Origin: Micromonospora sp. NBC_00389
Lineage (GTDB): Bacteria > Actinomycetota > Actinomycetes > Mycobacteriales > Micromonosporaceae
Direction: 5' to 3'
DNA: 64,000 bases
Assembly: GCF_036059255.1 (NCBI RefSeq)
Contig: NZ_CP107947.1
Span: 1,054,001 to 1,118,000, forward strand
Shown: positions 50,759 through 62,450 of the stretch, one piece after another
Numbering within the stretch: position 1 is the stretch's first letter
Layout of the letters: each line of letters begins with the position of its first letter
Position numbers and translations under genes: made by a program
Notes under the pieces: model-generated
Told to the model about the DNA's origin: nothing
The model's input: the letters and a program-made list of their open reading frames with translations, nothing else
The model's database searches: none

Positions 50759-53350
50759 ATGGAGCTGCTGGAACGCGCGGACGCGCTCGCCACCCTGGAC
50801 GGGCTGCTGGCCTCCCCCGGCGGCGCGATCGCGCTCGTCGCGGGCGAGGCAGGTGCCGGCAAGTCCACCCTGGTCGGTGCATTCGCGGCGACGGCCGGGG
50901 CCAGGGTGCTCTGGGGCAGCTGTGACCCACTGCTGACCCCACGGGCGCTTGGCCCCGTGCACGACATCGCCCGGCAGGTCGGCGGCGTACTCGCGGAACG
51001 ACTGAGCGCGCTGCACACGGCGGCGGAGGCCGAACGCCGTGACGCCTTGTTCGACGCGCTCCTCGACGAGCTGACCGATTCCCGGCCCGGACGCCGAACA
51101 GTGATGGTGGTGGAGGACACGCACTGGGCGGACGGGGCCACCCTGGACCTCATCGCGTACCTGGGGCGGCGGCTCGCCCGCCACCCGGCGCTGCTCGTAC
51201 TCACCCTGCGCGATGACGAGGTCGGGGCGGAGCATCCACTGCACGCCGTACTCGCGGGCCTGCCCCGGCCAGTGGTCCGCCGGTTGCCGCTGCCCGCCCT
51301 GTCCACCGATGCCGTCGCGGAGCTGGCCCGGCGGGCCGGCCGCGCCCCGGGCGGGTTGTACCAGGCCACCGGCGGCAACCCGCTGCTGGTCACCGAGGTG
51401 CTGGCCGCGACCGGCCCGGGTGTGCCGCCGACCGTACGCGATCTGATGCTGGCCCGACTGGCCGCGTTGTCGCCGCCGGCCCGGGAGGTCGCCGCCCTGG
51501 TCTCGGTGGTCCCGTCCCGGGCCGAGCCGTACCTGCTCGACGGTCACCCGGCGGCTGCCGTGCAGGAGTGCCTGGATCGGGGGGTGCTGGTCCCGGTGGG
51601 CAATGCGGTGGCGTTCCGGCACGAACTGCTGGGCCGGGCGGTACGCGAGTCACTCTCCCCGGTGCACCTGGTCGCGCTGCACGCCGCCGTGCTGGCCCGA
51701 CTCACGCCCCGGGCGGATGTGGACGCCGCCCGGCTGGTGCACCACGCTCACCACGCCGACGATCCGCTGGCCGTACTGCACTGGGCACCCGTGGCGGCCC
51801 AACGGGCCAGCCGGGCGGGCGCGCACCGGCAGGCGGCGGACCACTACACCGTCGCGCTCCCCCACGCCGCGGGCCTGCCGGCACCGCGCCGGGCCGAGTT
51901 GCTGGAGGCGTACGCGACCGCCGCGTACCTCGCCGGGTTGGCCGCGCAGGCGCTGGACGCCCGGCGGGCCGCGCTCGCCATGCGGGAGGCCGAGGGCGAT
52001 CCGCTGCGGATCGGCGAGAACCTGCGCTGGGTGTCGCGTCTGTGCTGGTGGACCGGGGACAGCACGGCGGCCCGGACGGCGGGTACCCGAGCGGTTCGGG
52101 TACTGGAGTCCGCGACCCCCGGCAGGCAGTTGGCGATGGCCTACAGCAACATGTCGCAGCTGCTCATGCTCGCCGACGACAACGACCGGGCCATCGAGTG
52201 GGGTGACCGGGCCCGGGAGCTGGCCCGACGGCTCGGCGACGTGGAGACCGAGGCGCACGCCCTGGTCAACGTCGGCTCGGCCCGCCTCCAGAGCGGTGAT
52301 GTCGCCGGCATCATCGAGCTGGAACGTGGGCACACCCTGGCCGTCGCCCACCACCTCGACGACCACGCGGCCCGGGCGCTGGTCAACCTGGCCACCATGT
52401 CGCTGGAGTGGCACCGGATCGGGCCGGCTGCCGAGGCCCTGGACCGGGCACTGCGCTTCACCACGACCCGGGACCTCGACGGGTACGCCCGGCACCTGCT
52501 CGGCTACCGGTCCCGGCTGCGGCTGACGACCGGCGACTGGGCCGGTGCCCGCTCCGACGCCGAACGGGCGCTGACCGGCACCGCGCAGCCCGGGGGGAGC
52601 CTGGTCCCGGCCCTGGTCGCACTGGGCCTGCTCGACGCGCGTCGGGGCGAGGCGACCACTGGCGAGCATCTGGACAGGGCGGCGCGCTGGGCGGCGCAGA
52701 GCCGCGAACTCCAGTTCGTCGTGCCGGTCGCCGCGGCCCTGGCGGAACGACACTGGCTGGCCGGCGAGCCGGGACCGGCGGTCCCCGAGCTGCGCCGTGC
52801 CCACCGGCTCGCCGTCGACGCGGGCCAACCCTGGTACGCCGGCGAGCTGGCGTACTGGCTGTGGCAGGTCGGCGAGCCGTTCGGGGACACCGGCGCGCTG
52901 GCGTCGCCCTACCGGCGGCTGATCGAGGGTGACTGGGCCGGCGCAGCCGAGGAATGGCACCAGCTCGGCTGCCCGTACTCCCGTGCCGAGGCGCTGGCCT
53001 GCGGCGACGACCCGGCGGCCGCCGAGGCGCTGCGGATCCTGGACGGGCTGGGCGCGATCGCCGTGGCCCGCAGGATCCGGGCCGAACTGCGCGGCCGTGG
53101 GATGGCCCGGGTGCCGAGGGGGCCGCGCCCGGCGACAGCCGCGCACCCGACGGGCCTGACCGCCCGGCAGCGGGAGGTGCTGGCGCTGCTCGCCGAGGGG
53201 CTCAGCAACGCCGAGATCGCGGCCCGGCTGTCGCTCTCCGCCCGGACCGTCGGCCACCACGTGTCGGCGGTGCTGGACAAGCTCGCGGTGCCCAGCCGGG
53301 GCCAGGCGGCCGCGGCGGCCCGCCGGCAGGGCCTGGTGCCGCCAACATAG
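50759..53350 (+). CDS. Large LuxR-family regulator with N-terminal AAA ATPase (LAL/MalT-like)
   Basis: Regulator of 863 residues. The N-terminal ATPase has Walker A GEAGAGKST (29-37) and Walker B-like MVVEDTHWADGATLDL near 115. The middle 500 residues are helical TPR-like repeats. The C-terminal LuxR helix-turn-helix is GLTARQREVLALLAEGLSNAEIAARLSLSARTVGHHVSAVLDKL (about 800-845). LAL regulators activate nearby genes on ligand binding; the next gene is a methyltransferase in the same direction, 76 nt downstream. TAGCAT ends 8 nt before the ATG. Ligand unknown. Confidence 0.9.
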   Translation: MELLERADALATLDGLLASPGGAIALVAGEAGAGKSTLVGAFAATAGARVLWGSCDPLLTPRALGPVHDIARQVGGVLAERLSALHTAAEAERRDALFDALLDELTDSRPGRRTVMVVEDTHWADGATLDLIAYLGRRLARHPALLVLTLRDDEVGAEHPLHAVLAGLPRPVVRRLPLPALSTDAVAELARRAGRAPGGLYQATGGNPLLVTEVLAATGPGVPPTVRDLMLARLAALSPPAREVAALVSVVPSRAEPYLLDGHPAAAVQECLDRGVLVPVGNAVAFRHELLGRAVRESLSPVHLVALHAAVLARLTPRADVDAARLVHHAHHADDPLAVLHWAPVAAQRASRAGAHRQAADHYTVALPHAAGLPAPRRAELLEAYATAAYLAGLAAQALDARRAALAMREAEGDPLRIGENLRWVSRLCWWTGDSTAARTAGTRAVRVLESATPGRQLAMAYSNMSQLLMLADDNDRAIEWGDRARELARRLGDVETEAHALVNVGSARLQSGDVAGIIELERGHTLAVAHHLDDHAARALVNLATMSLEWHRIGPAAEALDRALRFTTTRDLDGYARHLLGYRSRLRLTTGDWAGARSDAERALTGTAQPGGSLVPALVALGLLDARRGEATTGEHLDRAARWAAQSRELQFVVPVAAALAERHWLAGEPGPAVPELRRAHRLAVDAGQPWYAGELAYWLWQVGEPFGDTGALASPYRRLIEGDWAGAAEEWHQLGCPYSRAEALACGDDPAAAEALRILDGLGAIAVARRIRAELRGRGMARVPRGPRPATAAHPTGLTARQREVLALLAEGLSNAEIAARLSLSARTVGHHVSAVLDKLAVPSRGQAAAAARRQGLVPPT

Positions 53351-54294: not shown

Positions 54295-56916
54295 TCAGGG
54301 GGTGGTGGCGATGAAGTGGCCGGCCTGGTCGACCACGACGTCCGTGCTGCCACCGCTGTTGTTGAACAGCGTCACGGACCCGTTGGCGCCCACCCGGACC
54401 ACCGCGGCGTTCGACGCAGTCTCCCCGGCCACGAAGTTGACGTTCGAGACGGCCGCCGGCGCCTCGCCCTTGGGGTGCGCGGTGAGGACACCCGGAGCGG
54501 TCGGCGCGGTGACCGTCAGGTTGGCCACCAACGCGGTCGGCTTCGGCGCACTGTCGTTGCCGTTCGGGTCGAGGTAGGGCACCCACAGGTCGATCGACGA
54601 GAACGGAGCCAGGGTCGGATCAGCATTGCCGCCGATCGCGCTCCGGGTGTCGAGCACCCGCTGGGGACCGTGCGGCACGAAGCCGTCGGTGGCACCGGTG
54701 CCGTACCAACCGGCCAGGTCCGCGAGCACGTGGGTGGTACCGGAACTGACGTTCTGGAGAACGAGCCGACCGTTCACCACCGGCACCGTCACCAGGTTGG
54801 GGATGGTCTGGCCGGCGACGAAGTTCAGGTTGGACGCCGTCGGCACGGACGAACCGGCCGGGAACACGGTTAGGACCCCGTTCGCCGTCGGCTGGGTGGC
54901 CGTCACGTTCAGCACGACGGCCTTGGCACCTGACGGCACCCGCCCGGAGAGGTCCAGCACCCGATAGCTGTTCGCGGGGATCGGCGTGCCCCCGTTGGCC
55001 CGACTGTCCAGCACCCGGGTCGGCGGCAGCGGCTTGAAGCCGTCACCCACCCCGGAGTAGAAGCCCTGCAGGTCGGCGACGACGTGCACCGTCCCGCCGG
55101 CGTTGTTACGGATGCGCAGGTTGCCGTTGGACATCGGCACCGTGACCAGGTTCGGCACGGTCTCGCCGGAGACGAAGTTGACGCTCGACGCCCCGGGTGC
55201 CGTCGTGCCGTCGGGGTAGACGGTGAGGTAACCGGCGCTGGTCGGCTGGGTGGCTGTCACGTTGAGCACCACAGCCGTGATGTTCGAGGCCGCGACCCCG
55301 TTGATCGACATGATCGGCAGGACGATCTCGGAGTTGGCCGCGATGGGAACGGTGGTGCCGATTCCGACGGCGGCGCGAGTGTCCAGCAGACGGGTCGGCG
55401 TCACCGGGGTGAACATCGCGCCCAGGACCGTGCAGTACGCGAAGTGCGGCTCGAACACGATGTCCGGGAGCACCCGGAAGTTGTCGAAACGGGTAGAGCT
55501 GTTGTGTACACATGCGCCACCGGCGCGGGGGAGCTGGCGCTCCGCCGGTTCAATCGGACCCACGCGATAGAACCGGTCGCCGGTGAGCTTGCGGATCACC
55601 TTGCCCACCGGGCCGTCGGTGGGCCACGCGTGGATGACCGTCACGGGGTGAACGAAGTCCAGCGACGAACCGCCCGGCTTGCGCCGAATCTCGTCGATGC
55701 CGGTCACGGTCGAGTTGCCCTGGAGCTCCACCGCGCCCCGGTCGTGGTAGCCGTTACCGGTGCCGGTGTTGGGCACACTGGGCGCGTCGGCGTGTGCGTT
55801 GTCCAGCAGGTCGGTGCGAGTGGCGCCGGGCGCCGCCGCATCGGCGGAGTCGACCGCCGGCGAGGCGGCGGTCAGCGGGAACCAGCCTCGCTCGGTGCCC
55901 TGCATCTCGCCCAGCAGGGCCGGGGCCAGGATGTCGTGACCGCCCTGCCCCGTCGCCGCCCGGAACGACGCCAGATCGGCGTGATCGGTGTCGCCCCACC
56001 GGTAGACAGCCCCACCACTGGCCGGGTCGACCAGGTTGTGGTCGGCCTCCGTACCGCCGGTGGCCGCAGCGGAGACCGAGATCGCGGGCGCGGTGGTCGG
56101 GTCGGCACAGGCCCCCGGCTGCGGGACGGGCCCGGCACCGGTGCGCAGGATGTTGTTGCGGATACTCGCGCCGGTCGAGGCACCGGCCAGCACGATCCCG
56201 GTCGCGCAGTCGGTCACCACGGTGTTGCCGGTGATCCGGGCTCCCGGCGCGTCGGTCACGGCGACCCGGGTCTTGAAGAAGGTGCTGGCGGTGACCGTCG
56301 CGCCAGAGACGCCCGCCTCGACGGCCACGCCGGTGCCGGAGCCGGAGAACCAACCCCGGCTGACCGTGACATCGCTGGACGAACCCGTCACCCGGACGGC
56401 GGGCAGGGTGCCCGCGCCAGCGGCGACGCCGTCCACAGTGACCCGCTGGGCTCCCTGGATCAGAGCCGGCACCGCGTCGGCGCGGCCGGAGAGTGTGAGG
56501 CCCTCGACCACGACGTCGTGCACGCCGGAGATGGTCAGCGGAGTCCCGCTGATGCTGTAGTGGCCAACGCGGACCATGCCGTACGGCGTGTTGACCGCCC
56601 GCAGGGTGATCGGCGCGGATTCGGTGCCGGACCGCGTGACCGTCACCTTCTCCGCGTAGTTGCCCGGCAGCACGAGCACCGTCTGGCCCGGCTGGACGAC
56701 AGCCAACGCGGCGCCGATCGTGCAGTAGGGCGCAGCCTCGCTGCCGTCGCCAGCCGGCTTACAGTCGCGCTGACTGACGTACACCTCGGTGCCAGCGGTC
56801 GCGGCCTTGGCCGCGGGCGACGCGGGTGCCGCCACCGCTGGCGCGGCCGGCCCGGCCAGGCTCGCACCCCCCAGCAGCGGTACGACCGCGAGCTGGGCCC
56901 ACCTACGCATATTCAT
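54295..56916 (-). CDS. Secreted beta-helix protein with three LDTR repeats (paralogue 1)
   Basis: Exported protein of 873 residues. The signal peptide ends near AVAA (about 29). Residues about 42-110 form a conserved block with PYCTIGAALAVV, PGQTVLVLPGNY and TRSGTESAPITLRAVN, as in DUF1565/parallel beta-helix proteins. A valine/threonine-rich beta-helix-like region continues to about 330, with SIRNNIL and ITGNTV rungs. A variable domain (about 410-500, with AWPTDGPVGKV and five cysteines) leads to three repeats at 502-625, 626-744 and 745-873. Each repeat begins P-x-R-[LV]-L-D-[TS]-R and contains LNVT-type and NFVxGxT motifs. No catalytic residues are recognised. It is one of three tandem paralogues. 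A TAGGCT element (56954-56959) and GGGGGATGG precede the ATG. Confidence 0.82.
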   Translation of the reverse strand: MNMRRWAQLAVVPLLGGASLAGPAAPAVAAPASPAAKAATAGTEVYVSQRDCKPAGDGSEAAPYCTIGAALAVVQPGQTVLVLPGNYAEKVTVTRSGTESAPITLRAVNTPYGMVRVGHYSISGTPLTISGVHDVVVEGLTLSGRADAVPALIQGAQRVTVDGVAAGAGTLPAVRVTGSSSDVTVSRGWFSGSGTGVAVEAGVSGATVTASTFFKTRVAVTDAPGARITGNTVVTDCATGIVLAGASTGASIRNNILRTGAGPVPQPGACADPTTAPAISVSAAATGGTEADHNLVDPASGGAVYRWGDTDHADLASFRAATGQGGHDILAPALLGEMQGTERGWFPLTAASPAVDSADAAAPGATRTDLLDNAHADAPSVPNTGTGNGYHDRGAVELQGNSTVTGIDEIRRKPGGSSLDFVHPVTVIHAWPTDGPVGKVIRKLTGDRFYRVGPIEPAERQLPRAGGACVHNSSTRFDNFRVLPDIVFEPHFAYCTVLGAMFTPVTPTRLLDTRAAVGIGTTVPIAANSEIVLPIMSINGVAASNITAVVLNVTATQPTSAGYLTVYPDGTTAPGASSVNFVSGETVPNLVTVPMSNGNLRIRNNAGGTVHVVADLQGFYSGVGDGFKPLPPTRVLDSRANGGTPIPANSYRVLDLSGRVPSGAKAVVLNVTATQPTANGVLTVFPAGSSVPTASNLNFVAGQTIPNLVTVPVVNGRLVLQNVSSGTTHVLADLAGWYGTGATDGFVPHGPQRVLDTRSAIGGNADPTLAPFSSIDLWVPYLDPNGNDSAPKPTALVANLTVTAPTAPGVLTAHPKGEAPAAVSNVNFVAGETASNAAVVRVGANGSVTLFNNSGGSTDVVVDQAGHFIATTP

Positions 56917-57004
56917 CAACCATCCCCCGTGGAAGTCGAGTTTTGCTCGGCGCAGCCTATATCCACGGAGGTCATATCGGTTGTCCTGCGCCACTGGCAC
57001 AAAC

Positions 57005-57045
57005 GAGCCGGCGCCCGCCCGTTGGTCACGGGAGGACGCCGGCTC
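57005..57045 (-). terminator. Stem-loop downstream of secreted protein 2
   Basis: GAGCCGGCG (57005-57013) pairs with CGCCGGCTC (57037-57045) around a 23-nt loop, 13 nt past the stop of the minus-strand gene that ends at 57059. The loop is long for a classical terminator. Confidence 0.5.
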
Positions 57046-57058
57046 CGGGGTACGCAGA

Positions 57059-59698
57059 TCAGGGCGCGCCGGCGATGAAGTGTCCGGCCTGGTCGACGAT
57101 CATGTGGGTGTAGCCCGAGCTGTTGTTGAACAGCACCACGGCCCCGTCCTCACCGACGCCCACGATGGCATGGTTGGCGGCGGTCTCACCGGCGACGTAG
57201 TTGACGTTCGAGGCGGTCGGCTGGTCCGATCCGTTCGGGTGGGCGGTGAGCACGCCGGCCTTGGTCGGTGCGGTGACGGTCAGGTTCGCCACCAGTGCCG
57301 TCGGCTGCGGCGCTTTCTTGTCGCCCAACGGGTCGAGGAACGGCACGGGCAACCCCGCCGAGGTGTACGGCGTGTGCGGCCACCCCTCGCCGGCGGCCCC
57401 CCGGCTGTCGTACATCCGGCGCGGGCCGAACGGCACGAAGACGTCGGTGGCACCACCACCGAACCAGCCGGCGAGGTCGGCCACCACGTGCGTACGGCCG
57501 GAGCTGACGTTCTGGATGGCCACCTTGCCGTTGACCACCGGCACCATGACGAGGTTGGGGATGGTCTGCCCGGCGACGAAGTTCAGGTTCGACGCCACCG
57601 GCACCGCTGTGCCGTACGGGTGGACGGTGAGCACCCCGCTGGTCGTCGGCGCGGTCACGGTCACGTTGAGCACGGCGGCCGTGGCGCCCGCCGGGATCCG
57701 CCCGGTCAGGTCGAGCGTCCGCCCGGTGTGGGGGGCGAACGCGGAGTTGCCTGCGCTGCGGGTGTCCAGCACCCGCAGCGGAGCGATCGACCGGAAGCCG
57801 GAGCCGCTGGCCGAGTAGTAGCCCTGCAGGTCGGCGACGACGTGCACCGTACCGCTGGCGGTGTTGCGCACGCGCAGGTTGCCGTTGGACATCGGCACGG
57901 TGACCAGGTTCGGCACCGTCTCACCGGCCACGAAATTGACGTTGGACGCTTCGGGCAGGGTGGTGCCGTCCGGGTAGACCCGCAGGAATCCGGCGGTGGT
58001 CGGCGCGGTGACGGTCACGTTCAGCACCATGGCGCTGATGTCCGCCGCCGGCACCCCGTTGATCTGCGGCAGCGCCAGCACGACCTCGGTGTTCGCCGGG
58101 ATCGGCACGGTGCCCGGCACCCCGATAGCCGCGCGGGTGTCCAGCACCCGCTGCGGTGGTAGGGGGGTGTAGGCGGCACCGACCACGGTGCAGGTGACGA
58201 CCGGGCTCCCGTACGTCCTCCGGAAGTCGTTGAAGCTCACGTGGTGGGTCTCGCAGGCCTTGCCGGCCCGGTGGAAGTGGTGGTCCTCCGGCCCGATCCG
58301 ACCGATCCGGCGGAACGGCTCGTCACTCCAACTGCGGGACACCTTGCCCACCGGGCCGTCCGTGGGCCAGGCGGCGGTGACCGAGAGGCCGACGGTCGCG
58401 TCCAGGGGTGAGCCACCGGCCTTGCGGTGGACTGGAAGCTCCTGGACTGTCATCGGTCCCTGGGCCTCGACCGCGCCCCGGTCGTGGTAGCCGGAGCCGG
58501 TGCCGGTGTTGGGCGTCTCCGGGCTGTCCGTGTGCGGGTTGTCCAGCAAGTCGGTGTGGGAGACGCCCTCGGCCGTGGCGTCGGCCGAGTCGACGGCTGG
58601 GGAGTTCCGGGCGATCTCGTAGTACGGCCGCTCGTACGCCTGGGTCGCCATCAGCCAGGGGACCGCGGCGATGTCGTGAACGCCCTGACCGGTGGCGGCG
58701 ACGAACTCCGGCAGGCTGGTGTACTCGGTGGCATCCCAGCGGTAGAGCGGGCCGCCACTGCCTGGCTCGATCAGGTTGTAGTCCGCCACGGTCTGCGGAA
58801 CACTGCCGGCCGAGACGGCGATGGCGGTCGCCTCCGATGGCACCTCGCACGCCACGGCATCATTGAGGGCACCGGTGGCGGTCTCAAGGATGTTGTTCCG
58901 GATCGACACGCCCGGCGAGGTGCCGGTGACGTCCACCGCCAGTGTGCAGTCGGTGGCCAGGGTGTTGCCGACGATCTTCGTGCCCGGCGCGTCCCGCACC
59001 GTGATCCCGCTCTGGGTGAAGGTGCTGGCGGTGACCAGCGCGCCGGTCACTCCCGGGTCCACCAGCAGCCCACTGCCCGGCCCGAAGTAGCTGCGGCTCA
59101 CCGTGACGTCCTGCGCCGCGCCGGTAATCCGGATCGCGCCCGGGGCGTCGTACTCGGAGGCGACCAGCCGGTCGAGGGTGATTCGCGCGGACCCGTTGAC
59201 GAGGACGGCCTCGGCCGTCCCCTCGCCTGCAGTCAGGAAACCCTCGAGGACCACATCGTGGATGCCGGTGAGGGTGAAGGCGCTCTCGTTGCCATTGGCA
59301 CCGCGTCGTTTGCCGACCTTGACCGCAGTGGTGCTGAGGCCCGGCCCGTTGACCGCCCTGAACGTGATCGGAGCGCCCTCCGTGCCGGATCGGGTGAGCG
59401 TCACCGACTCCCGGTATTCCCCGGGCTGCACCAGGACGGTCTGGCCGGGTCCGGCCACCGCCGCAGCCTGGGTGATGGTGCAGAAGGGCGCCGTCAGGCT
59501 GCCGTCGCCGCCGGCCACGCAGCCGGACTTGCTGACGTAGAACTCGGCTCCGACGGCAGCCGGCAACGGTGCGATAGCGGGCACCGGCGCCGCGACAGAG
59601 GCCCCAGGCGCCGCCGCCGCGGGCGCCGCCGGGCCGACCAGGCCGGTGCCACCGATCAGCGGTACGAGCGCGAGCCGCGCCAGTCCAGAAATCCTCAT
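57059..59698 (-). CDS. Secreted beta-helix protein with three LDTR repeats (paralogue 2)
   Basis: Exported protein of 879 residues with the same order as its neighbours: signal peptide (to about AAAA at 30), the block PFCTITQAAAV / PGQTVLVQPGEY / TRSGTEGAPITFRAVN, a beta-helix-like region, the marker DRGAVEAQG, a variable domain (SVTAAWPTDGPVGKVSRSW, three or so cysteines), then three ~120-residue repeats from about residue 510. The third repeat has a degenerate start (RRMYDSR). Compared with paralogue 1 the sequences are clearly homologous but well diverged, so the duplication is old. GGGATGG precedes the ATG; AGCTTA (59739-59744 on plus) gives a TAAGCT -10 on the coding strand. Confidence 0.82.
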   Translation of the reverse strand: MRISGLARLALVPLIGGTGLVGPAAPAAAAPGASVAAPVPAIAPLPAAVGAEFYVSKSGCVAGGDGSLTAPFCTITQAAAVAGPGQTVLVQPGEYRESVTLTRSGTEGAPITFRAVNGPGLSTTAVKVGKRRGANGNESAFTLTGIHDVVLEGFLTAGEGTAEAVLVNGSARITLDRLVASEYDAPGAIRITGAAQDVTVSRSYFGPGSGLLVDPGVTGALVTASTFTQSGITVRDAPGTKIVGNTLATDCTLAVDVTGTSPGVSIRNNILETATGALNDAVACEVPSEATAIAVSAGSVPQTVADYNLIEPGSGGPLYRWDATEYTSLPEFVAATGQGVHDIAAVPWLMATQAYERPYYEIARNSPAVDSADATAEGVSHTDLLDNPHTDSPETPNTGTGSGYHDRGAVEAQGPMTVQELPVHRKAGGSPLDATVGLSVTAAWPTDGPVGKVSRSWSDEPFRRIGRIGPEDHHFHRAGKACETHHVSFNDFRRTYGSPVVTCTVVGAAYTPLPPQRVLDTRAAIGVPGTVPIPANTEVVLALPQINGVPAADISAMVLNVTVTAPTTAGFLRVYPDGTTLPEASNVNFVAGETVPNLVTVPMSNGNLRVRNTASGTVHVVADLQGYYSASGSGFRSIAPLRVLDTRSAGNSAFAPHTGRTLDLTGRIPAGATAAVLNVTVTAPTTSGVLTVHPYGTAVPVASNLNFVAGQTIPNLVMVPVVNGKVAIQNVSSGRTHVVADLAGWFGGGATDVFVPFGPRRMYDSRGAAGEGWPHTPYTSAGLPVPFLDPLGDKKAPQPTALVANLTVTAPTKAGVLTAHPNGSDQPTASNVNYVAGETAANHAIVGVGEDGAVVLFNNSSGYTHMIVDQAGHFIAGAP

Positions 59699-59811
59699 CA
59701 ACCATCCCTGATGAAAGTGGATCTTCAAATGCGACGAGAGCTTATACCGACGCCCACCGATGCCCGACCCGCCGATCGGATGAACCACCGCACCGGTCGA
59801 CCGGGTACGGA

Positions 59812-59842
59812 CCGGCCGGCCACCGATGCGATGGCCGGCCGG
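59812..59842 (-). terminator. Terminator of secreted protein 3
   Basis: Perfect 11-bp stem CCGGCCGGCCA with TGGCCGGCCGG around a 9-nt loop, 7 nt past the stop of the minus-strand gene that ends at 59850. Confidence 0.7.
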
Positions 59843-59849
59843 ACGACGG

Positions 59850-62450
59850 TCAGGACGCGGCGGCGATGAAGTAACCCGACTGATCGACGATGACGTGGGA
59901 CGTACCCCCGCTGTTGTGGAAAATGTCGACGCCGGAGCCCACGGCGACCAAGGCGGCGTTCGACGCGGTCTCACCCGCGACGAAGTTGACATTCGAGGCG
60001 GTGGGCCGCTGCCCGCCGCCGGGATGAAGGGTGAGCACGCCCGCCGTGGTCGGTGCGGTAACGGTCACGTTGCCCACCAGCGCGGTCGGGGTCGGGCAGG
60101 CCGGCGCGCAGACCACGCCGCTCTGGAACGGCGCGAACCGGACGGTCTCCCGGGCGGCGAGTGGAGCCGGCGCGCGGCCGGGCAGCCCGATGCTGTACCG
60201 GGTGTCGACGATCCGCGTCGGCGTGATCGGCACGAACGTCTGGGTGGCGTCCGGGCTGAACCAGCCGGCCAGGTCCGCGACCACGTGTGTGGTGCCGGAG
60301 CTGTTGTTGAAGATGTTGACCCGGCCGTTCACCACCGGCACGGTGACCAGGTTGGGGATGGTCTGCCTGGCGACGAAGTTGAGGTTCGACGCGGTTGGTG
60401 CCGCCGAGCCGTACGGGAAGACCGTGAGCACCCCGCTCGTGGTCGGAGCGGTGACCGTCACGGAGAGCACGGCCGCCTTCGCGCTGGCGGGCAATCGCCC
60501 GGACAGGTCGAGCGGGCGGATGCCCTTGGCCGGGATCGGCGCGCCAGCTCCCTCCCGGGTGTCGAGCACCCGCGTCGGCGACACCGACGCGAAGCCGGAC
60601 CCGGTCGCGGCGTAGAAGCCCTGGAGGTCGGCGACCAGGTGGACGGTGCCCGAGCTGGTGTTGTCGAAGAGGGCGGACCCGTCGAGGACGGGCACGGTGA
60701 CCTGGTTCGGCACCGTCTCCCCGCTCACGAAGTTGATGCTGGACGAGGTGCTCCAGCCGCCGCTCGGGTAGACGCTGATGAAACCCGAGGCGCTTGGCTG
60801 GGTCACCGTCACGTTGAGCACGACCGCGCTGATGTCCGTCCCGGGAATCCCGGCGATGCTGCCGATCGGAAGCTCGACCGTTCCGTTCGCGGCGACCGGT
60901 CGGGTGTCGGGCACACCGATCCGGGATCGGGTATCCAGGACCCGGGTCGGCGCCACCGGTATGTAGCGTGCACCGACCTGGGTGCAGATCCGTTCGTCGT
61001 ACGAGGTGGGCAGCCGGAAGTCGGTCTGAGAGGTCTGCACCCGGACGCAGACTTCGCCGGCTCGCCGCAGCGTGTACTCCGCCGTGGCGGAGTCGGTCAC
61101 CCGCCAGAACGGCTCGCCGTGGTGGTGGTAGGCGTACAGGGTCCGCTCCCGCTCGACCGGCCAGACGGAGTGCGTGCCCGACCGGGCGACCACGTCGAGG
61201 GTGCCGCCGCCAACCTTGCGCTCGACACGTAGCGGGTCCTGAGTGACGGCACCCCGTGCCTCCACCGCTCCCCGATCGCGGTATCCGCTGCCGGTGCCGA
61301 TGTTCGGCATGGCCGGATCGTCGGTGTAGGACCCGTCGAGCATGTCGGTGTCCAGGGCGCCGGGGGCGTTCGCCTCGGCGGAGTCCCGGGCGGGAGACCC
61401 GTCCCCGGTCACCAGGTAGTGACGGTCCACGCCGGTCGCCCAGGTGAGCTTCGGGTCGGCCGCCAGGTCGTGGGCGGCCTGCCCGGTCGCCGCGACGAAT
61501 GCGGCGAGGGTGGGGTAGTCGGTGCCCGCCCAGGAGTAGGGCGCCCCTCCGCCGAGCGGGTCGATCAGGTTGTAGTCGGTGCTGGTCCCCGCCACCGACT
61601 CGGCGGACACCCGGATGCCGGTGGCGTTCGCCGGAGTGAGGCAGCGACCGCGCAGGCGAGCCGTGACGACGATGTTGTTGCGAATCGTGGCACCCGGTGA
61701 ACTGCCAGCCAGCTGGATGCCGTACCTGCAGTCGACGTGGATCGTGTTGCCCGTGATCGTGAGGCGGGGAGCGTTCGCCGCGGCCAGGCCGGAGTTGTCG
61801 AGCTGGTTGGCGGTGATCACCGTGTCGGTGACGCCTGACTCAACGGACACCGAAGGGCCCTGCCAGGTGCGGACGAAGCTTCGGCTGACGGTCACCCGGC
61901 TCGACGTGCCGCTGATCCGCACTCCGTTGGGACCGGAACTGCCGGTGTAGATGGTGACCTTGTCGAGGCGGACCCGGTGGGAGTCCCGCACTGTGACGGC
62001 GTCGGCGACGTTGGCCCCGAAGACGACCAGGCCCTCCACCGTCACGTCGTGCACGCCGGTGAGGTCCAGGATGGTCCCGGTGATGGCACCGGTGGCGTAT
62101 CTGCCGACCCGCACCATCTCCGAGTTGACATTGACCGCGCGGAAGGTGATCGGCGCGGACTCAGTGCCGGATCGGGTGAACCGGACGTTCTCCTGGTATT
62201 CCCCCGGGTGCACCAGGACCGTCTGGCCCGGGCCGGCCACCGCAGCCGCCTCCGATATGGTGCAGAACGGTCGCTTCACGCTGCCGTCACCGCTGCCCTG
62301 GCACCACAGCTCGCTGACGTGCAGTTCACCTGCGACCGCCGAGGCGGTGACCGGCGCGGGCGCCGCCGAGGCGGGCGCTGCGGGCCCCACCAGGGCCGCA
62401 CCCCCCGTCAGTGGTACGAGTGCGAGGCGTGCCCACCGTCGGATGTCCAT
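59850..62450 (-). CDS. Secreted beta-helix protein with three LDTR repeats (paralogue 3)
   Basis: Exported protein of 866 residues, first of the trio in transcription order. It has a signal peptide (about 1-28), PFCTISEAAAV / PGQTVLVHPGEY / TRSGTESAPITFRAVN, a beta-helix-like region with ITGNTIHVDC and TIRNNIVVTA rungs, DRGAVEARG, a variable domain, and three repeats starting at PVAPTRVLDTR, SVSPTRVLDTR and PITPTRIVDTR. The variable domain here lacks the AWPTDGPVGKV motif and instead has SVWPVERERTLYAYHHHGEPFWRV, so this middle part may define specificity. AGCGTA on plus (62490-62495) gives a TACGCT -10; GGGGGCG precedes the ATG. Confidence 0.82.
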   Translation of the reverse strand: MDIRRWARLALVPLTGGAALVGPAAPASAAPAPVTASAVAGELHVSELWCQGSGDGSVKRPFCTISEAAAVAGPGQTVLVHPGEYQENVRFTRSGTESAPITFRAVNVNSEMVRVGRYATGAITGTILDLTGVHDVTVEGLVVFGANVADAVTVRDSHRVRLDKVTIYTGSSGPNGVRISGTSSRVTVSRSFVRTWQGPSVSVESGVTDTVITANQLDNSGLAAANAPRLTITGNTIHVDCRYGIQLAGSSPGATIRNNIVVTARLRGRCLTPANATGIRVSAESVAGTSTDYNLIDPLGGGAPYSWAGTDYPTLAAFVAATGQAAHDLAADPKLTWATGVDRHYLVTGDGSPARDSAEANAPGALDTDMLDGSYTDDPAMPNIGTGSGYRDRGAVEARGAVTQDPLRVERKVGGGTLDVVARSGTHSVWPVERERTLYAYHHHGEPFWRVTDSATAEYTLRRAGEVCVRVQTSQTDFRLPTSYDERICTQVGARYIPVAPTRVLDTRSRIGVPDTRPVAANGTVELPIGSIAGIPGTDISAVVLNVTVTQPSASGFISVYPSGGWSTSSSINFVSGETVPNQVTVPVLDGSALFDNTSSGTVHLVADLQGFYAATGSGFASVSPTRVLDTREGAGAPIPAKGIRPLDLSGRLPASAKAAVLSVTVTAPTTSGVLTVFPYGSAAPTASNLNFVARQTIPNLVTVPVVNGRVNIFNNSSGTTHVVADLAGWFSPDATQTFVPITPTRIVDTRYSIGLPGRAPAPLAARETVRFAPFQSGVVCAPACPTPTALVGNVTVTAPTTAGVLTLHPGGGQRPTASNVNFVAGETASNAALVAVGSGVDIFHNSGGTSHVIVDQSGYFIAAAS

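Follow-up and report, generated by a model that had tools for sequence, protein, structure and literature searches.

The three paralogous genes and their modules

The window analysed here is a stretch of 64,000 nucleotides from Micromonospora sp. NBC_00389 (contig NZ_CP107947.1, positions 1,054,001 to 1,118,000), to which all plain coordinates below refer. Three consecutive genes on its minus strand, located within positions 54295-62450, encode proteins that end in three LDTR repeats, the subject of this report. Genes A (54295..56916), B (57059..59698), and C (59850..62450) are paralogues for exported modular proteins of 873, 879, and 866 amino acids (aa), respectively, as counted from the chosen starts. 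Their open reading frames (ORFs) contain no internal stops according to the ORF list and translation, which agrees with the preliminary description of this DNA. The longest mechanical ORFs comprise 901 (A), 977 (B), and 874 aa (C); that of gene B is open upstream to 59992, and the start aligning with those of A and C is at 59698. The sequences immediately 5' of the start codons (56916, 59698, and 62450) are similar in the three genes, as expected of duplicates.

All three products share one layout, which is given here for gene A with module borders placed by eye from the alignment and the model: a signal peptide (residues 1-43), a right-handed parallel beta-helix with a DRGAVE cap at its end (44-397; 55726..56787, minus strand), a middle domain (398-504; 55405..55725, minus strand), and three LDTR repeats (505-629, 630-748, and 749-873). 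The C-terminal three-LDTR unit, proposed below to form a single-chain pseudo-trimer head, corresponds to residues 504-873 (54298..55407, minus strand). The signal peptides of A, B, and C were read by eye from the sequence, in keeping with the earlier claim of export, and no anchor besides the C-terminal unit was noticed in these sequences. The DRGAVE motif lies at residues 392, 406, and 392 in A, B, and C, respectively. Each protein has Cys residues near positions 52/65, 237/270, and 469/495 (gene A numbering); gene C alone has two further ones in repeat 3.

The beta-helix suspected earlier is present in the predicted structure of the full gene A product (model md7a4ef59220b; predicted local distance difference test score, pLDDT, 91.9; predicted template modelling score, pTM, 0.84). 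Pfam matches over cut-off were obtained in all three genes: NosD (33.3 bits) and DUF1565 (30.4 bits) in A, DUF1565 (21.4 bits) in B, and Beta_helix (41.3 bits), NosD (27.9 bits), and DUF1565 (27 bits) in C. The Beta_helix profile by itself stays below cut-off in genes A and B.

The middle domain is the most divergent module, as had been observed before: the paralogues share 32-46% identity here, against 49-54% in the helix and 60-66% in the repeats, and the mean column entropy over 79 aligned homologues is 2.17 bits, versus 1.12-1.74 bits in the other modules (helix and three repeats). It is absent from 6 of the 79 homologues. Weak matches to PKD (PF00801) occur in 4 of 14 members at E <= 0.1 (best E 0.0027), and the homologue P0154 displays a PKD-like pattern, WGDG...THTY...GTYTV, at the place of this domain; the full-length P0154 sequence has no Pfam PKD match at E <= 0.001. 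A profile search of the PDB with the middle domain returned a single row (E 1.1). Read most simply, the domain is a degenerate beta-sandwich spacer of the PKD type. The preliminary description had placed the specificity of these proteins in this domain. We found no support for this idea: the variability is equally well explained by loose constraint, the domain has a weak PKD likeness, and some homologues lack it.

The LDTR cores start at residues 510, 635, and 754 in A, 518, 643, and 762 in B, and 504, 628, and 747 in C, and the repeats are 119-125 aa long. In these sequences the motif reads R-[LVMI]-[LVY]-D-[TS]-R. The LDTR-type core reported previously is retained; the original pattern, R-x-[LV]-[LV]-D-[TS]-R, is one residue too long, and a pattern of this type matched nothing. 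Homology within and between the proteins is confirmed by all 36 pairs of the nine repeats, which are 37-70% identical (z 12-33; 60 shuffles each). Repeats at equal positions of different proteins are 53-70% identical as compared to 39-58% for different repeats within one protein; the first repeats of A and C (56%) fall slightly under repeats 1 and 2 of A (58%). The three-repeat layout therefore most likely predates the paralogues, as judged from sequence identity.

LDTR repeats occur mostly as one or three copies

The LDTR repeat is a beta-sandwich in a confident model (three-repeat unit, mf1aa62445e2c; pLDDT 93.3, pTM 0.90). Searches of Pfam, NCBIfam, and PHROGs returned nothing on the repeats of A, B, and C over cut-off or at E <= 0.001; the weak rows were DUF7196 in gene A repeat 1 (15.4 bits; cut-off 27) and CgeC in all three genes (E 0.35-0.43). 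The repeats are uncharacterised, as was stated earlier, and an enzymatic reading of them was discarded, since no enzyme family emerged over cut-off in A, B, or C. The PDB gave no match to the repeat profile at E <= 5; with a 79-row profile, the repeat region drew only a weak match to an unrelated protein (E 0.76). In the literature, with most subscription journals outside the search, we recognised no description of the LDTR domain; the papers listed mostly use LdtR in other meanings.

With the gene A repeat array as query, 7219 proteins were scored at E <= 1e-5. Records containing the repeats come from Actinomycetota, Chloroflexi, and Rudaea (best 80 of 213). Exactly three repeats were present in 62 of 66 closed ORFs of a named-genome sample (61 on a recount with a richer profile). 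The phylum sample (n=68; 60 regions chosen by hand among the rows listed for 10 of 13 other carrier genomes) contained 50 proteins with three repeats, 15 with one, and 3 with two. A single-domain query listed 120 proteins, of which 102 had three repeats, 12 had one, 1 had four, and 5 had five. Three-repeat queries listed 154 proteins, a set skewed towards three by search design: 148 had three repeats, 5 had six, and 1 had five. None of these 274 listed proteins had two copies. The predominance of one or three repeats per protein points to a three-fold unit rather than a string of independent repeats. This pattern was not remarked upon in the preliminary description.

Several proteins depart from the simple pattern. 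The six-repeat proteins P0121, P0122, P0123, P0125, and P0128 are regular tandem arrays, which fits two heads of three. Over its whole length P0121 passes the Pfam cut-offs of S_layer_C (41 bits) and Peptidase_A4 (29.6 bits) with no single stretch passing alone, and these scores are taken as sums of weak matches. P0185, P0171, P0189, P0201, P0258, and P0262 (637-658 aa) carry three full repeats behind one or two weaker partial copies; they either break the rule of one or three copies or represent arrays in decay. L192, with one plus two repeats in two frames, looks like a frameshift-broken triple, as does L048; assembly errors or decay are possible. The pieces of L192 were counted in the phylum sample (as one single, also among the 15 singles, and one two-copy protein) and were excluded from the clade analysis.

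Long collagen-like Gly-X-Y runs are found in 10 of 15 singles and in 0 of 50 triples of the phylum sample (Fisher p 1.7e-8, which should not be read literally, as the counts are not independent). The database set agrees: all 12 singles have such runs, as compared to 3 of 250 triples, with only 6-7 triplets each. Collagen helices are obligate trimers.

A proposed trimeric head and its alternatives

We propose, with a probability of about one half, that the products of genes A, B, and C combine a beta-helix, a PKD-like spacer, and three LDTR domains packed as a pseudo-trimeric head that binds a surface or matrix ligand. The signal peptide is followed by a right-handed beta-helix of the polysaccharide lyase or glycosidase class, probably a platform for binding glycans rather than a lyase, then by the spacer and the three LDTR beta-sandwiches, which would pack round a pseudo-three-fold axis into one compact C-terminal head on a monomeric beta-helix. 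The module layout, the modelled beta-sandwich fold of the repeat, and the copy numbers are observations; the packing, the binding of a ligand, and the location are deductions. Each protein would then be a natural single-chain version of three single-LDTR chains on a collagen-like stalk. The head most likely binds a cell-surface or matrix ligand and would thereby retain or deliver the attached module outside the cell. Our best guess for the ligand, by analogy with Bd2133 relatives, C1q, and phage tips, is a surface glycan. More tentatively, yet with a real prospect of being correct, LDTR may be an unclassified head domain, widespread in bacteria, whose working unit is three-fold and made either of three chains, often collagen-stalked, or of three fused copies (six being two heads). 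The general idea of surface or carbohydrate-binding proteins put forward earlier is plausible and appears to be the most likely one, with the key in the repeat number and not in the middle domain.

The best VIA-align match of the three-repeat model is the trimer tip of the Bdellovibrio bacteriovorus fibre protein Bd2133 (mosaic adhesive trimer family; PDB 8ond/8ok3), and the single-domain fold agrees with a beta-sandwich of this kind. The Bd2133 tip consists of three separate chains on a trimeric fibre, whereas three copies are fused here, and the identity is only 9-10%. C1q and TNF-type heads are jelly-roll trimers. C1q heads sit on collagen stalks, likewise some single LDTR domains. The engineered single-chain forms of C1q (5hkj) and APRIL-BAFF-BAFF (4zch) align with the LDTR unit over about two domains; they are man-made, while the LDTR triple is natural. 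C1q and TNF heads gave lower Z than Bd2133, and PDB profile searches found no sequence similarity between them and LDTR. BclA-type bacterial collagen-like surface proteins differ from the window genes, which have three fused domains and no collagen stalk. A viral structure library returned 66 matches at E <= 0.001 (template modelling score, TM, 0.16-0.27 in the rows shown), including a C1q-domain phage protein and a pithovirus collagen-repeat protein; these were not used as evidence.

A number of findings weigh against the proposed head. Its packing is deduced from copy numbers and not from coordinates, and global superposition on the single-chain C1q head is poor (TM 0.24). High conservation would be expected at LDTR positions 77-87, since Bd2133 trimerises about the equivalent strand; this window ranked only 67th of 99 in conservation. 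The strand was assigned by collinearity and scored as 79-89 after the reference was trimmed by two residues, so that the equivalence is approximate. Most triples were retrieved by three-repeat queries. The 12 database singles with collagen form one clade, which includes the query, and all 29 singles fall into 7 clades, 3 of them with collagen, so that independent single-copy lineages are few. Five singles have no visible stalk-like segment. One of these is the single-LDTR protein of the same genome (L021, G000:C1:1504564-1504950), which has about 333 aa, a Tat-like signal (by eye), and no collagen run.

An alternative, which we regard as unlikely, is that the repeats are independent carbohydrate-binding or wall-anchoring beta-sandwiches, comparable to tandem carbohydrate-binding modules (CBMs), whose number of three was fixed once and which are shuffled as a cassette with no three-fold packing. 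The Foldseek matches do include tandem CBM22 and neuropilin b1b2 chains. The cassette is also joined to many unrelated partners, such as RCC1 and CotH kinase, and, by source names among the matches listed (best 120 of 7219 and best 120 of 305), an amidase, a subtilisin, and a DUF1501 protein. It is mostly C-terminal: 226 of 250 triples lie within 15 residues of the C-terminus, 20 are N-terminal, and 4 are in mid-protein. Inheritance as a unit is indicated by a tree of 113 triples, in which 51 of 117 sister pairs join equal positions of different proteins, and position labels on the repeat tree require 155 changes, against a shuffled mean of 189 and a minimum of 179 (200 shuffles); part of the triples therefore descend as a unit. 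However, 52 of the same 117 sister pairs join repeats of one protein, and three 100% identical repeats occur in 5 of 181 triples (P0134, L212, L213, L216, and L229). From these two observations, the arrays are seen, at the level of sequence, to be rebuilt or homogenised without a change in the number of three. The absence of two-copy proteins among the 274 listed and the confinement of long collagen runs to singles also speak against independent repeats. The profile of alignment A4 returned mainly RCC1 propellers, because its rows are full-length proteins.

It is rather doubtful that the beta-helix has polysaccharide lyase or glycoside hydrolase activity, with LDTR merely targeting it and the array supplying degradative enzymes for different substrates. 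A precomputed tag of PF22842.4 (polysaccharide lyase family 9, PL9; Pel9A-like) is carried by most homologues among the matches listed; version.2 of PF22842 was unmatched in the genome studied here. Enzymes of this kind have a catalytic Lys and a cluster of Ca-binding Asp residues in the rungs. Across the 79 homologues, a count of alignment columns, not a superposition, showed that between residues 44 and 396 no Lys reaches 70% conservation. Counted in the same way, D134, D162, D222, D292, and D297 are each present in 60-69 of the 79; D328 is present in 78, and no Asp before D356 is fully invariant. The family differs in these rungs without a conserved Lys from the right-handed beta-helix enzymes PL9 (Pel9A), PL6, XylC (3vst), and BT_1002 (5mqp).

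It is highly improbable that the C-terminal unit is a sorting signal, that is, a surface-attachment domain read by dedicated machinery like C-terminal sorting domains, for which its usual place at the protein end and the lack of another noticed anchor would speak, given the N-terminal and mid-protein triples and the 20 of 50 phylum-sample triples that are not C-terminal.

Distribution in Micromonospora and implications

A profile built from all three gene products scored 534 proteins; among the best 120 examined, most of those named belong to Micromonospora, and two are from Kitasatospora (44-45% identity). Within the genus, 11 of 160 genomes, including the one studied here, carry a match at E <= 1e-120. 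This search scored 5 candidates per genome, so that its copy numbers reach 5 at most. The fetched regions of the 11 carriers, to which the figure applies, hold 43 full-length copies, 1-7 per genome, in line with the multi-copy array described previously. A fourth full-length paralogue of the genome studied here (L257, G000:C1:1209920-1212520) is solitary and lies about 93 kb away; its neighbours resemble what we take to be genes for a catalase-peroxidase and a Fur-type regulator. The neighbour of the single-repeat gene L021 is presumably an inositol-phosphate synthase gene.

The transporter gene of the window, or the stretch just before it, adjoins the array in 9 of the other 10 carrier genomes; the region fetched from G167 showed no transporter. 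In a 41-genome sample, 25 genomes have a transporter match. About 13.2 kb separate the matched stretches of the transporter and the metallophosphoesterase here, against 1.2 kb in G153, a genome outside the 11 array carriers. From this spacing and the patchy carriage, the array looks like a patchy accessory element, at one locus in most carriers, with gain, expansion, and loss. Beside it, a gene for an 863-aa LuxR-type regulator (50759-53350) is located between the metallophosphoesterase and methyltransferase genes; tblastn detected this regulator in none of the other fetched array regions, not all of which reach that far.

For Micromonospora, these genes mark a patchy, expanding array at one locus. 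LDTR itself is a widespread uncharacterised domain with no covering Pfam model over cut-off in A, B, and C. Should the prevalence of one or three copies reflect a trimer, it would offer a testable structural logic for the domain and a route to ligand assays. The fused LDTR form would then provide a monomeric enzyme or beta-helix with a trimeric head for recognition, and would parallel in nature the single-chain C1q and TNF heads obtained by engineering.
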